This document shows positions 50,611 to 54,942 of a DNA stretch of 64,000 nucleotides, in pieces. Made by a program: the position numbers and the translations under genes. Each line of letters starts with the position of its first letter. Position 1 is the first letter of the stretch. The notes below the pieces were generated by a model. That model worked only from the letters and a program-made list of their open reading frames with translations, was not told the DNA's origin and did not search any database. Origin of the DNA: Rhodobacteraceae bacterium LNNU 3342. Lineage in GTDB: Bacteria > Pseudomonadota > Alphaproteobacteria > Rhodobacterales > Rhodobacteraceae. Where the stretch lies: NCBI GenBank assembly GCA_008711135.1, contig VUAW01000007.1:62001-126000 (forward strand), written 5' to 3'.

Positions 50611-51321
50611 TCATTCCCTGGCGATGGCGAAAACGACGGTGACATTGGCGTCCAGCGTCAGTTCCCCGGCGGCGACTGGAACGCCCGAATCCATCGCGGC
50701 CTCCATCCGGTACATCGGCATCGGCGGGCCGAACTGTTCAGGCTCGGCAATGGCGATTACGTCACCAAGGGCGACTCCCGCGGCCTCGGCGTAAAGTTCA
50801 GCCTTGCGGCGGGCATCGGCCACCGCGCGGCGGCGCGCCTCGTCCTTTTGGGGTTCCGGTTCGTTCAGGCCAAAGCTCAGCCCCTGGAAGGTATTGGCGC
50901 CATCCTGCACCACATCGTCCAGCAGGTCGCCCAGTATATCCAGGTCACGTACCCGGACGTTCAGGGTATTCTGCGCGATATAGCCAGTGATCCGGGGGCT
51001 CTCCTGGTGGTTTTCGGGGTGGTGCCAGCGCGGGCTCAGCATCAGACCCGATGTCTGGATGTCGCGCTCCTCGATCCCGGCGGCGGTCAAGCGCTCCAGC
51101 ACCGCGCGGACCTGCTCCGAGGTCTGGCTCATCGCGTCGGCCGCAGTCTCGGCCTCTGCCGTGGCGCCCAGCATCAGGGTCGCCATGTCAGGCGCGACCT
51201 CGACCCGACCCTCGCCCGAAACGCGGATCTGCGGCGGCTCCACCACCTGGGCGGCCAGCGCGCCCGGAAGCATCCCCATCATCACCGCAAGCGCCGGCCC
51301 CGCAAACGCATTCAACCGCAT
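50611..51321 (-). CDS. Secreted SIMPL (DUF541) domain protein
   Basis: The 236-residue product from ATG 51321 has a signal peptide (FAGPALAVMMGMLPGALA) and a SIMPL domain: IRVSGEGRVEVAPDMATLML, SEQVRAVLERLTAAGIEERD, IQTSGLMLSPRW, RVRDLDILGDLLDDVVQDGA and RRKAELYAEAAGVALGDV. AGGAGAGG upstream supports the start, and the longer frame lacks a signal. SIMPL proteins are periplasmic or outer-membrane proteins of unsettled function, some linked to oxidative stress. Confidence 0.87.
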   Translation of the reverse strand: MRLNAFAGPALAVMMGMLPGALAAQVVEPPQIRVSGEGRVEVAPDMATLMLGATAEAETAADAMSQTSEQVRAVLERLTAAGIEERDIQTSGLMLSPRWHHPENHQESPRITGYIAQNTLNVRVRDLDILGDLLDDVVQDGANTFQGLSFGLNEPEPQKDEARRRAVADARRKAELYAEAAGVALGDVIAIAEPEQFGPPMPMYRMEAAMDSGVPVAAGELTLDANVTVVFAIARE

Positions 51322-51513
51322 CGCACATCCTCTCCTGTTGTACACTTCCTTCGCCATCTGGTCCGACCCACAGCCGTTTGCCAAGATCTGCTACAACTTC
51401 ACACGGCTTCGTGCACGCGGGCGCCTGCTTTCCCTCGGCGTTTTCCTGCTGTAGGCTCTGACTGGTCCCGACGGTCCCTTATGGGAACGCCCACCCTGTG
51501 CTAGAGCCGCTGA

Positions 51514-53925
51514 ATGAAACCGACCTTTGCACTGACCCTTTCCCCCGACGGCCTGCGCCTTTCGCATCGCGACCGCCGTGGCTGGCTTCTGGTGGGCGAG
51601 GCCGCCCTGGATGATCCACAGCTTGGCCACCGCCTGAAGGAGCTGAGGCAGACAGCCGAACAACTTGCCCCCGGCGCCGTGACGACGAAACTGGTGCTGC
51701 CGACGGAACTGGTCCTGTTCACGACGCTTGACCTGCCGCCGGGGGAAGAAGATCGCATCCCGCCCGCGCTGGAGGGGCTGACCTACTATGATCCCGCTGA
51801 TCTGGTCTGGGACTGGGTGCCTGAAGACGAGGGTATCCGTCTTGCCGCCGTCGCGCGCGAGTCGCTTGCCGAGGCGGAGAATTTTGCAGAGGAGAACGGC
51901 TTTGCGCCGATCTGCTTTGTCGCCCTGCCCGAAGACGTCGGAAGTTTCGAGGAAGAACCATTTTTCGGGCTGACCACCCACGGCATGTCGCTGGGGCTGG
52001 ACCCGGCGGAGCTTCGCGGGGATGAGCCTGCCTTTGTCGTAGGCCGTGCTGTCATCACCCCTGCGCCCGAACGGCCAGAGGCCGCGCCCGCCGAACCGCC
52101 CAAGACGGCCGAATTCGAAGACATTAACGAAGAGGTCCCCGCCCGCCCCGCCGCCCGCCCCTCGGAAGAGCGGGAGCGGATCGCTGCCGCAGTCCGTCGT
52201 GTACGTCTGGCGCCCGTGCCCGCGCCAGAGCCTGAGCCCGAACGGGTTCCCGTCGCCGAGGATGAAGCTGCCGCCGAGCCCGAACAGCCGCCGCAGGCCG
52301 AACCGGTCGGCATGATCAACTCTCCTCAGATCGCGCTACCCGAGCATGAGCCGGAGCCGGAACCCGTTCCGGAGCCTGCCTTGGTTACTGCGCCAGCGCC
52401 TGCCGTCACGACGCCTCGGCTCCTGGGACCTGCGGGCAGCGCGATCGTCTCTCGTCCCAAGGTCGAGATCGAGCCCCACCCCCGTTCTTTCCAGGATCGG
52501 GCCGACGGGTTCCTTGCGCGCTATTCCCGGATGCCGCGTCCGGGAGGATCGGCGCGCAACGGCATCTTCCTGACCGGGGCCCTGGTTCTTGGCCTGGTAG
52601 GTGTAGGCGTATGGGCAAATTTGCAGCCGGAAGCCCCGTCTGTGGCACAGGAACAGGCCGTCGTCACCGACGCGCCTGCCGCGTCTGAGGATGTGACTGA
52701 ACTGACGCAAGCCCCCGCGCAGGAGCTGCCGCCCCTGCCGCAAGCGATGCCCCTTCCCGACCGGGCACTGCTTGACATCGCCCCCGCACCACAGATCCCA
52801 GCCCAGCCCCCCACCACGACAGAGGTTCAGGCGGTGGTCGCCGCCACCGTCCGCCGGCATGCCGTGGCTTTATTGGACACAGAGGCCGCTGAGGTGCTGA
52901 TCGCCGAGGAAGCAGAGGCGACTTATGAACCCGCGCCCCTCCCCGAGGCGGCCTTGGAGCCGGAGGAAACAGAACCCGAAGGCCAGGTCGACGTCGAAGC
53001 CGCGCCCGAAACCGCGGTTCAGTCAGTCGTACAGCCCCGGCCCAATCCGGCGGCAGCGGCCTGGGATCTTGACGAAGAAGGGGACACGCCCGAAGCGGCA
53101 GAGGCTGCGCAAACCCCTCCGCGCGCGCGACCGCGGGATTTCGTCCCCGCGCCACAGGCCGAGGTGATTCAGGATGCGGTGGCCGGTGTGGTTGCCGAAG
53201 TCGCCGCGCTCGACGCGCCCGAGCCGCCCACTCCAGAGGTTCTGGCCGGGCTTCGCCCCCGCAGCCGCCCGGACCTGCCCGCCACGGCGTTGGCCGAGGA
53301 AAAGGTGCCGGACCCGGCCCCGGCGGTCGAGGCAGCGTTCAGCCTTCTTCCGCGCGCACGGCCCGGTGCGATGGCTGCGCTGGCCGCCGATCTGGAACCC
53401 GAGCTTGAGGCCGAGGCGACCGCTTTTGCCATCGCGGCCTCCCCGGTTCCACTGTTGCGGCCAGAGGTCATTGCTGCCGCGCCCGCACCGACGCCTGCGG
53501 CCGCAGCGCCTGAACCCCCGCCTCCGCCCGCTCCGGTCGTCGCCGCGCGCCCGCCGGTCGATGCCCGTGCTGTGGACGCCGCGCTCGCCGCAGCGCTGGC
53601 CGCCCCTGGGCCGCAGCGGCAGCACCTGGCCGAAGCCGATGATGAGCCAGAATTGACCGCCCCCGCGCCGAACATTCCCACCTCGGCCTCAGTTGCGCAG
53701 CAGGCGACGGTTACCCGGGCCATCAACCTGCGGCAGGACAACCTGATCGGGGTCTATGGGACCTCTGGCAGCCGCCGCGCGCTGGTCCGCGCCTCGAACG
53801 GACGGATGATGCAGCTTCGCGTGGGCGACCGCTATGACGGCGGGCAAGTCGCCGTGATCCATGAACGCGAAGTTCACTACATCAAGAATGGGCGAACTTT
53901 TGCTCTTGCGATGCCGCAGGGCTGA
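51514..53925 (+). CDS. Large membrane protein with GspL/PilM-like N-domain and PilP/GspC-like C-domain
   Basis: The 803-residue protein begins with a domain of about 180 residues (MKPTFALTLSPDGLRLSHRD, KLVLPTELVLFTTLDLPPGE) that resembles the actin-like fold of PilM and GspL. A long Pro/Ala/Glu-rich stretch follows, then one membrane helix near residues 348-368 (NGIFLTGALVLGLVGVGVWA), more low-complexity sequence, and a C-terminal domain at about 728-803 (LIGVYGTSGSRRALVRASNG, RMMQLRVGDRYDGGQVAVIH) that looks like the periplasmic homology region of PilP/GspC. It would therefore link cytoplasm and periplasm. It stands alone; no pilus or secretion genes are next to it. Confidence 0.65.
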   Translation: MKPTFALTLSPDGLRLSHRDRRGWLLVGEAALDDPQLGHRLKELRQTAEQLAPGAVTTKLVLPTELVLFTTLDLPPGEEDRIPPALEGLTYYDPADLVWDWVPEDEGIRLAAVARESLAEAENFAEENGFAPICFVALPEDVGSFEEEPFFGLTTHGMSLGLDPAELRGDEPAFVVGRAVITPAPERPEAAPAEPPKTAEFEDINEEVPARPAARPSEERERIAAAVRRVRLAPVPAPEPEPERVPVAEDEAAAEPEQPPQAEPVGMINSPQIALPEHEPEPEPVPEPALVTAPAPAVTTPRLLGPAGSAIVSRPKVEIEPHPRSFQDRADGFLARYSRMPRPGGSARNGIFLTGALVLGLVGVGVWANLQPEAPSVAQEQAVVTDAPAASEDVTELTQAPAQELPPLPQAMPLPDRALLDIAPAPQIPAQPPTTTEVQAVVAATVRRHAVALLDTEAAEVLIAEEAEATYEPAPLPEAALEPEETEPEGQVDVEAAPETAVQSVVQPRPNPAAAAWDLDEEGDTPEAAEAAQTPPRARPRDFVPAPQAEVIQDAVAGVVAEVAALDAPEPPTPEVLAGLRPRSRPDLPATALAEEKVPDPAPAVEAAFSLLPRARPGAMAALAADLEPELEAEATAFAIAASPVPLLRPEVIAAAPAPTPAAAAPEPPPPPAPVVAARPPVDARAVDAALAAALAAPGPQRQHLAEADDEPELTAPAPNIPTSASVAQQATVTRAINLRQDNLIGVYGTSGSRRALVRASNGRMMQLRVGDRYDGGQVAVIHEREVHYIKNGRTFALAMPQG

Positions 53926-53928
53926 CGC

Positions 53929-54942
53929 CTAGCCGCCAGACACTCCCGCCTCGGCGAAGGTTGCCATGCCGGAATGACAGGCAATAGCTGCCTGCACGAT
54001 ACCGATAGCCAAGGCCGCGCCGCTCCCCTCGCCCAGCCGAAGCCCCAGGTTCAAAAGCGGTGTCTTGCCCAATGCCGCGAGCAGTCTTTCATGCCCTGGT
54101 TCAGCCGAACAATGCCCTGCCAGCGCATGGTCCAGCGCACCGGGTGCCGCGCGTTCCAGCACTGCTGCCGCCGCTGTGCAGATGAACCCGTCCAGCAGCA
54201 CCGGAATCCGCGCTGTCCGCGCCGCGGCGATCGCGCCTGCCATGGCGGCAAGCTCGCGCCCGCCCAGCCGCCGAAGCGCCTCCAGCGGGTCAAGAAGTTG
54301 CCCGCGATGGCAGGAGAGCCCTGCTGCCACCGCCGCCGCCTTGCGCCCCAGCCCGGCATCATCGACGCCCGTGCCACGCCCGACCCAATCTCGTGGGTTG
54401 CCCCCGTAAAGCGCCGTCGCCAGAGCCGCGGCCGATGTCGTATTGCCAATGCCCATTTCCCCCGTCACCAGAAGGTCGGCTTGAGGGTCCACTGCTGCCC
54501 AGCCGGTGCAAAGTGCGTCCAGAAGCTCGCCTTCGCTCATCGCCGGGGCCTCGGTGAAGTCAGCTGTTGGCTGGTCAAGGTTCAGCGCGTGAATGTCGAT
54601 CCTTGCGCCGAATGTTTCGGCAAGCTGATTTATGGCCGCGCCGCCAGTGCGGAAGTTTTCCACCATCTGTGCCGTGACCGCCTGCGGAAAGGCCGATACG
54701 CCCTGCGACGTCACCCCGTGGTTCCCGGCGAAGATGATCACCTGTGGCGCCTTCAGCCGGGGCAGCGGGCCGCGCCAGCCGGCATACCAGATGGCGATAT
54801 CTTCTAGGCGGCCCAGCGCACCCAGAGGCTTGGTCAACATCGCATCGCGCGCCCGCGCCGCTTCGGCTGCGCCTGCATCGGGCTGGGGAAGGCGGGCAAG
54901 CGCCTGCCGGAACTCGGTCAGCGTGGCGAAGGGACGGGTCAT
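53929..54942 (-). CDS. cobT: Nicotinate-nucleotide-dimethylbenzimidazole phosphoribosyltransferase
   Basis: CobT makes alpha-ribazole phosphate, the lower ligand precursor of cobalamin. The 337-residue protein has [80 protein letters not shown] and the C-terminal [20 protein letters not shown] that includes the catalytic Glu. It is divergent from cobS over 68 bases, a natural pair for lower-ligand assembly. No cobalamin riboswitch fits in that gap. Confidence 0.95.

Follow-up and report, generated by a model that had tools for sequence, protein, structure and literature searches.

The inner-membrane platform of secretion and pilus machines is usually seen only as the base that links the motor of a pilus or pseudopilus to a secretin. 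In the type II secretion system (T2SS), GspL (EpsL/PulL/XcpY) starts with a cytoplasmic actin-like domain that is followed by a membrane helix, and this domain binds the N-terminal region of GspE (see the title of PDB entry 4pht). GspC (PulC/OutC) and PilP carry a Pro-rich periplasmic linker and an HR domain, preceded in GspC by a membrane anchor. The N0 domain of a secretin is the binding site for the HR domains of GspC, PilP and GspB, and GspB/OutB, a solo HR-domain protein, anchors the secretin to the membrane and to peptidoglycan (PMC9239104). The complex of C, L and M can assemble without the secretin (PMC11981180).

The window (the whole stretch of 64,000 nucleotides that was analyzed, from Rhodobacteraceae bacterium LNNU 3342, hereafter the host) encodes a protein of 803 residues which resembles both GspL and GspC. 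It shares with GspL the order of a cytoplasmic actin-like domain and a membrane helix, but its cytoplasmic domain is shorter, the periplasmic ferredoxin-like/PilN domain is absent (after the helix there is only a low-complexity linker and the HR domain), and neither gspE, gspM nor other gsp genes lie nearby. It differs from GspC and PilP in having a GspL-like cytoplasmic domain in front, a linker several times longer and no PDZ domain, and in occurring in several genomes that lack a secretin. The GspAB fusions offer a precedent for a cytoplasmic module joined to an HR protein, although GspA contributes an AAA+ ATPase on the cytoplasmic side instead of a GspL fold, and GspA/B proteins assemble the secretin (PMC9239104). 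XpsCLM also forms a platform subcomplex, but consists of three proteins and comes from a complete T2SS (PMC11981180). The closest precedent in spirit would be the cage of the Campylobacterota flagellar motor (FcpMNO/PflD), for which parts of a pilus inner-membrane platform were likewise exapted by another machine; these are, however, unfused and tied to flagella, whereas the family described here persists without FlhA (PMC11870540). A literature search, covering a minority of the subscription journals, revealed no published description of the fusion protein. The domains are known; undescribed, as far as our tools reach, are their fusion, its status as a core gene and the finding that it does not depend on any type IV filament machine.

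Domain architecture of the fusion protein

The features of the locus are listed in Table 1. The sequence-only reading had described an ORF with the motifs VRASNG and RVGDRYDGG, one membrane helix and Pro/Ala-rich acidic linkers, all of which were recovered from the sequence and by a hydropathy scan. Both motifs lie within the ORF, whose antisense frame is interrupted by stop codons. The scan placed the only membrane segment at residues 350–368, flanked by linkers of approx. 174 residues before and 333 after it, and basic residues preceding the helix suggest a topology with the N terminus inside. No secretion, pilus or division genes adjoin the fusion gene in the host. The divergent SIMPL (DUF541) gene is also adjacent in roughly half of the relatives' loci with enough flanking sequence; the two genes may have a common promoter region or a related role in the envelope.

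Table 1. Coordinates of the fusion gene, its predicted regions and the neighboring genes in the window
Feature	Coordinates	Strand	Remarks
GspL-GspC fusion gene	51514..53925	+	803 aa, ATG start; orthologues recovered
N-terminal GspL/PilM-like (actin-like fold) cytoplasmic domain	51514..52053	+	residues 1-180, core about 1-155
Cytoplasmic Pro/Ala/acidic linker	52054..52560	+	by composition; location inside suggested by basic residues before the helix
Single membrane helix	52561..52617	+	hydropathy scan, about residues 350-368
Periplasmic Pro/Ala-rich linker	52618..53727	+	3' end carries the conserved motif P-T-S-A-S-V-A-x-x-A-T
C-terminal GspC/PilP-type HR domain	53728..53922	+	residues 739-803; AF2 model, fold search
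SIMPL (DUF541) gene, divergent neighbor	50611..51384	-	Pfam 1.9e-60; often the adjacent upstream gene in relatives
cobT (DBI_PRT), convergent neighbor	53929..54942	-	metabolic; no link to envelope machines

The whole protein gave no match above the cut-offs in Pfam, NCBIfam or the PDB, since its low-complexity linkers swamp the search, and the two domains were therefore analyzed singly. An AF2 model of the 180 N-terminal residues, built from an alignment with 16 relatives, had a pLDDT of 92 and a Foldseek E-value of 1.6e-7 for its GspL/PilM-type match. The top solved structures were GspL cytoplasmic domains (1yf5, Z 11.2, rmsd 3.1 over 144; 4pht, Z 11.1), followed by PilM (Z 9.2); FtsA chains were also among the matches (Foldseek E 3.9e-4, Z up to 7.8). 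By these best matches, the modeled domain is actin-like and nearer to GspL than to PilM. The model of the 65 C-terminal residues exceeded a pLDDT of 90 across most of its core, and aligned with the HR domain of GspC (3oss; Z 10.0, rmsd 1.2 over 59 residues) and with PilP (Z 8.0–9.5), as against Z below 5 for unrelated folds; its Foldseek E-value was only 1e-3. By its best matches, the modeled C-domain has the HR beta-sandwich fold of the GspC/PilP superfamily. The assignments to GspL/PilM and to PilP/GspC that had been proposed from the sequence are in this way upheld by the models. Binding to secretin N0 domains, by analogy with other HR domains, can be regarded only as a candidate property of the fusion.

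The family models agree weakly yet consistently with these identities. TIGR03021 (pilP_fam) and PF04351 (PilP) match all 18 C-domains tested (best E 4.6e-9 and 3.6e-5, respectively), and T2SSL matches four out of 17 N-domains (best member E 7e-4). The host domains score under the curated cut-offs (24.8 bits against 34.65 for TIGR03021; 10.9 bits against 25.5 for PF05134), so that these matches lend support and not proof. Two results of profile searches against the PDB were discarded: designed TPR proteins, found with the N-domain, where no single stretch exceeded the threshold, and ribosomal protein L2, ranked first for the C-domain, which was set aside in favor of the fold search.

Distribution of the fusion gene and of the known machines

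In 44 full-length relatives, each from a separate genome, the N-domain is followed by the HR domain in one ORF, with HR at its very end and, in 43 of them, a predicted membrane segment between the two. Relatives have domains 32–47% (N) and 27–54% (C) identical to those of the host protein; the linkers, both Pro- and Ala-rich, range from 22 to 535 aa on the cytoplasmic and from 192 to 551 aa on the periplasmic side. A motif, PTxASVAxxAT, recurs just before the HR domain, also in the unfused GspC of one relative (G017, see below). This pattern in the sequences, with two ends kept in dozens of relatives and linkers that vary freely, is far beyond chance and confirms the predicted ORF as real, as well as the fusion of both domains in one gene that had been noticed from the host sequence. 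One relative (G015) has an HR protein without the N-domain, the start of which resembles a signal peptide; this would fit a periplasmic location of the HR domain. In G014 and G073, the N and C parts are split over separate ORFs. We rejected these as unfused ancestors, because gspM is missing; they are probably broken or frame-shifted fusions.

We examined 120 genera of Rhodobacteraceae, using genomes at least 90% complete. The N-domain profile matched 113 and the C-domain profile 119 of them, and the fusion gene is near-universal and single-copy in this family. Joined in one chain, the two ends of the platform are retained among the core genes of a family that is large and important ecologically, even in genomes with neither motor nor secretin. 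Among 289 genomes sampled evenly across the class, clear matches were confined to Rhodobacteraceae; the weaker matches outside the family, where the neighborhoods were read, belonged mostly to regular T2SS operons, and one to a T4bP-like operon. When named genomes were scanned with the HR domain of a more consensus-like relative (that of the host returned nothing), we obtained 80 loci, essentially all from Rhodobacteraceae (Roseovarius, Mameliella, Rhodovulum, Rhodobacter, Tritonibacter and others). One record (L239), titled Enemella evansiae, an actinobacterium, is probably mislabeled, since it contains a version of the locus typical of Rhodobacteraceae.

Many relatives encode a second, HR-only protein of 84–135 residues with no evident signal peptide or membrane helix, which is absent from the host. 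Its gene keeps the same place, close to purF, surE and a gene for a short-chain dehydrogenase (L088:7838-8104, +; L087:7631-7960, +; L093:7465-7758, -; and seven similar loci). These are housekeeping surroundings, and an HR domain in the cytosol, as such a protein might imply, would be odd.

The only secretin, the two T2SSF proteins and the one T2SSE ATPase of the host sit in one Tad-type cluster on contig C12. The host has neither a protein of the GspF type, which has about 400 aa and both domains in a single ORF, nor a GspD-type secretin, and a type IVa/IVb pilus set (PilC/GspF, PilB and a PilQ-type secretin) was not found; the Tad pilus is the only such machine that it has. Within the family, a secretin (PF00263) was detected in 109 of the 120 genomes, mostly in forms of about 480 aa as in Tad, and an occasional interaction with the fusion protein may thus occur. 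Ten secretin-negative genomes also lack PF00482, as does G023, in which the sole secretin gene adjoins an FHIPEP gene (T3SS-like). Both fusion domains were present in 10 of the 11 genomes devoid of a non-T3SS secretin and PF00482 (the exception, G045, is of ambiguous status). Eight of these ten lack PF00437 (the GspE/PilB/CpaF ATPase) as well (G023, G059, G070, G102, G106, G125, G127 and G131). Absence in a draft genome may reflect a gap, but the pattern recurs in complete-looking assemblies (G059 in one contig, G106 in five).

FlhA, chosen as the flagellar marker over FliM (which matched only 22 genomes), was found in 101 of the 120 and missing in 19, and many FlhA-negative genomes, such as G127, G069, G083 and G128, keep the fusion gene. 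G127 lacks the secretin, PF00482, PF00437 and FlhA, and still encodes a typical fusion of 862 aa. Strict co-occurrence with gsp, pil, tad or flagellar genes was not found among the 120 genera, and in none of the loci that were read did tad genes border the fusion gene. The profile comes out in favor of the earlier view of a solitary gene. That it is kept where no T2SS exists suggests that it is probably a stand-alone connector across the envelope. The role of a minimal connector of an unknown machine, as proposed earlier, is something that we infer. Three relatives (G014, G073 and G119) contain a T4bP-like cluster apart from the fusion gene (L184, L185 and L186), with large ORFs resembling R64 PilO, an HR-domain protein, a PilB-like ATPase and a PilC/GspF-like protein.

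Unfused gspL-gspM-gspC sets and the probable origin of the fusion

Two deep-branching relatives (G017 and G068) carry unfused gspL, gspM and gspC genes outside any T2SS operon. In G017, the peptide MEVVNRIKRSTLGFVDRALAP is encoded both in the gspL-like gene with which contig C23 begins and at the end of contig C119, from which we conclude that the contigs join. The order across this join, which depends on the two contig ends with common sequence, is metY, a GspE-like ATPase gene, gspL, gspM and an HR-domain gspC. The ATPase (959 aa) matches T2SSE (3e-32) and MshEN (7e-16) and has the Walker A motif GPSGAGKT, while GspM matches the XpsM family (5.6e-15). G017 contains a Tad cluster, with no GspF-type or GspD-type gene and no T2SS, and the orphan set occupies the locus where the fusion usually lies: metY precedes the fusion gene on its strand in 23 of the 32 loci having enough flank, and it likewise precedes this set. 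In the ATPase (L138:1017-3896, -), the MshEN and ATPase domains are separated by several hundred disordered residues, which is unusually long.

The orphan trio of G068 is located elsewhere than at metY, and this genome also has a Tad cluster and a complete T2SS, the operon of which includes L, M and C genes for that system; the unfused orphan GspL of G068 does carry a PilN domain. In G008, an orphan gspL lies near metY, and a separate T2SS has its own L, M and C. The fusion N-domain profile aligned with the orphan GspLs at an hhalign E-value of 4.9e-19, in contrast to only 0.036 with the T2SS GspLs of G028 and G068, and the fusion HR profile matched the orphan GspCs at 7.5e-18. Descent of the fusion from an orphan gspL-M-C set is therefore strongly supported. 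The likely course is that a platform set split from the T2SS early, near the base of the family, with a later fusion of L to C and the loss of M. In the trees of the two domains, all T2SS GspL rows but one, which is long-branched, group in a clade; two orphan GspL rows join T2SS rows with only moderate support, and the fused rows form no supported clade. The trees are compatible with this descent, but are poorly resolved at depth and leave a single origin of the fusion undecided. The unfused relatives may show intermediate steps in the departure from a secretion system.

Proposed role and alternative readings

We propose, with a probability of roughly 0.6, that the protein is a single-chain inner-membrane tether, derived from the platform of a T2SS and acting outside T2SS, type IV pilus, Tad pilus and flagellum. 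The ancestor would be the T2SS inner-membrane assembly platform, in which the cytoplasmic domain of GspL became joined to that part of GspC which comprises membrane helix, linker and HR domain, with the loss of GspM. Anchored in the inner membrane, the chain may dock a cytosolic client through its actin-like domain, span the periplasm with its long linker and reach a periplasmic or outer-membrane partner through its HR domain. It would operate without secretin, pseudopilus, GspF and GspE, which would set it apart from the four machines named. Since several genomes lack both GspE and the secretin, the two ends must have other partners, at least there, and it is for this reason that we propose a tether coupling a cytosolic client to the outer envelope. 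A wider and more tentative idea, to which we give less than even odds, is that of an undescribed envelope-spanning machine of Rhodobacteraceae with a core envelope function, made from a stripped T2SS platform (E, L, M and C unfused in one relative, one L-C fusion in most) and having no secretin, pseudopilus or GspF. If its partners are found, the family would allow a test of what the platform does alone and would add a second documented case of exaptation to that of the flagellar cage of Campylobacterota.

An N-domain of the PilM/FtsA type could instead ride on cytosolic filaments or polar factors, with the periplasmic arm anchored to peptidoglycan or the outer membrane. Such a cytoskeletal or division scaffold, which we consider unlikely, would agree with the FtsA chains among the fold matches, the near-universal single-copy conservation and the anchoring of GspB/OutB to peptidoglycan (PMC9239104). 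The N-domain, however, fits GspL and PilM clearly better than FtsA and is far shorter (180 residues as compared to over 360), and division genes were not found near the fusion loci. It is quite unlikely, too, that the protein is an accessory of the Tad pilus, with HR bound to the CpaC/RcpA secretin and the N-domain to an inner-membrane or cytoplasmic component of Tad. The confinement of the host's secretin, T2SSF and T2SSE matches to a Tad-type cluster, the Tad-sized secretin of most relatives and the N0 binding known for other HR domains (PMC9239104) favor this role, but at least eight genomes that have no Tad secretin, TadB/C or CpaF retain the full protein, no tad genes lie beside the fusion in the loci read, and the Tad secretin of P. 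aeruginosa has an alignment complex of its own, RcpC (PMC12307814).

A role as a working part of some normal T2SS or type IV pilus whose genes lie elsewhere in the genome, to which the domain types and the T2SS or T4bP-like clusters of some relatives might point, is already contradicted and hardly credible: neither system is present in the host or in many relatives, and the T2SS operons of G068 and G008 hold their own L, M and C besides the orphan gene(s). Strong conservation of two domains in over 110 genera and retention as a single copy would not be expected of a relic that is decaying after the loss of its secretion system and serves no purpose at present, and we find this reading highly improbable in spite of the split ORFs of G014 and G073, the missing N-domain of G015 and the freely drifting linkers. 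Finally, the N-domain might dock the MshEN domain of a family-2 membrane glycosyltransferase in the manner of GspL and the N-terminal region of GspE, and in this way link the synthesis of polysaccharides with the outer envelope. Of the 120 family genomes, 106 encode an MshEN protein, mostly as one ORF of 600–700 aa, and the single ORF scanned for domains is such a glycosyltransferase; it is the only one scanned, four genomes with the fusion gave no MshEN match (G070, G102, G106 and G125) and genetic linkage was not seen, which makes this coupling very unlikely. Compared with these alternatives, the tether derived from a T2SS platform remains our preferred reading. The MshEN ORF of one relative is located at L227:1258-3126 (+), and the host copy (G000) at 249098-249334 of contig C22.
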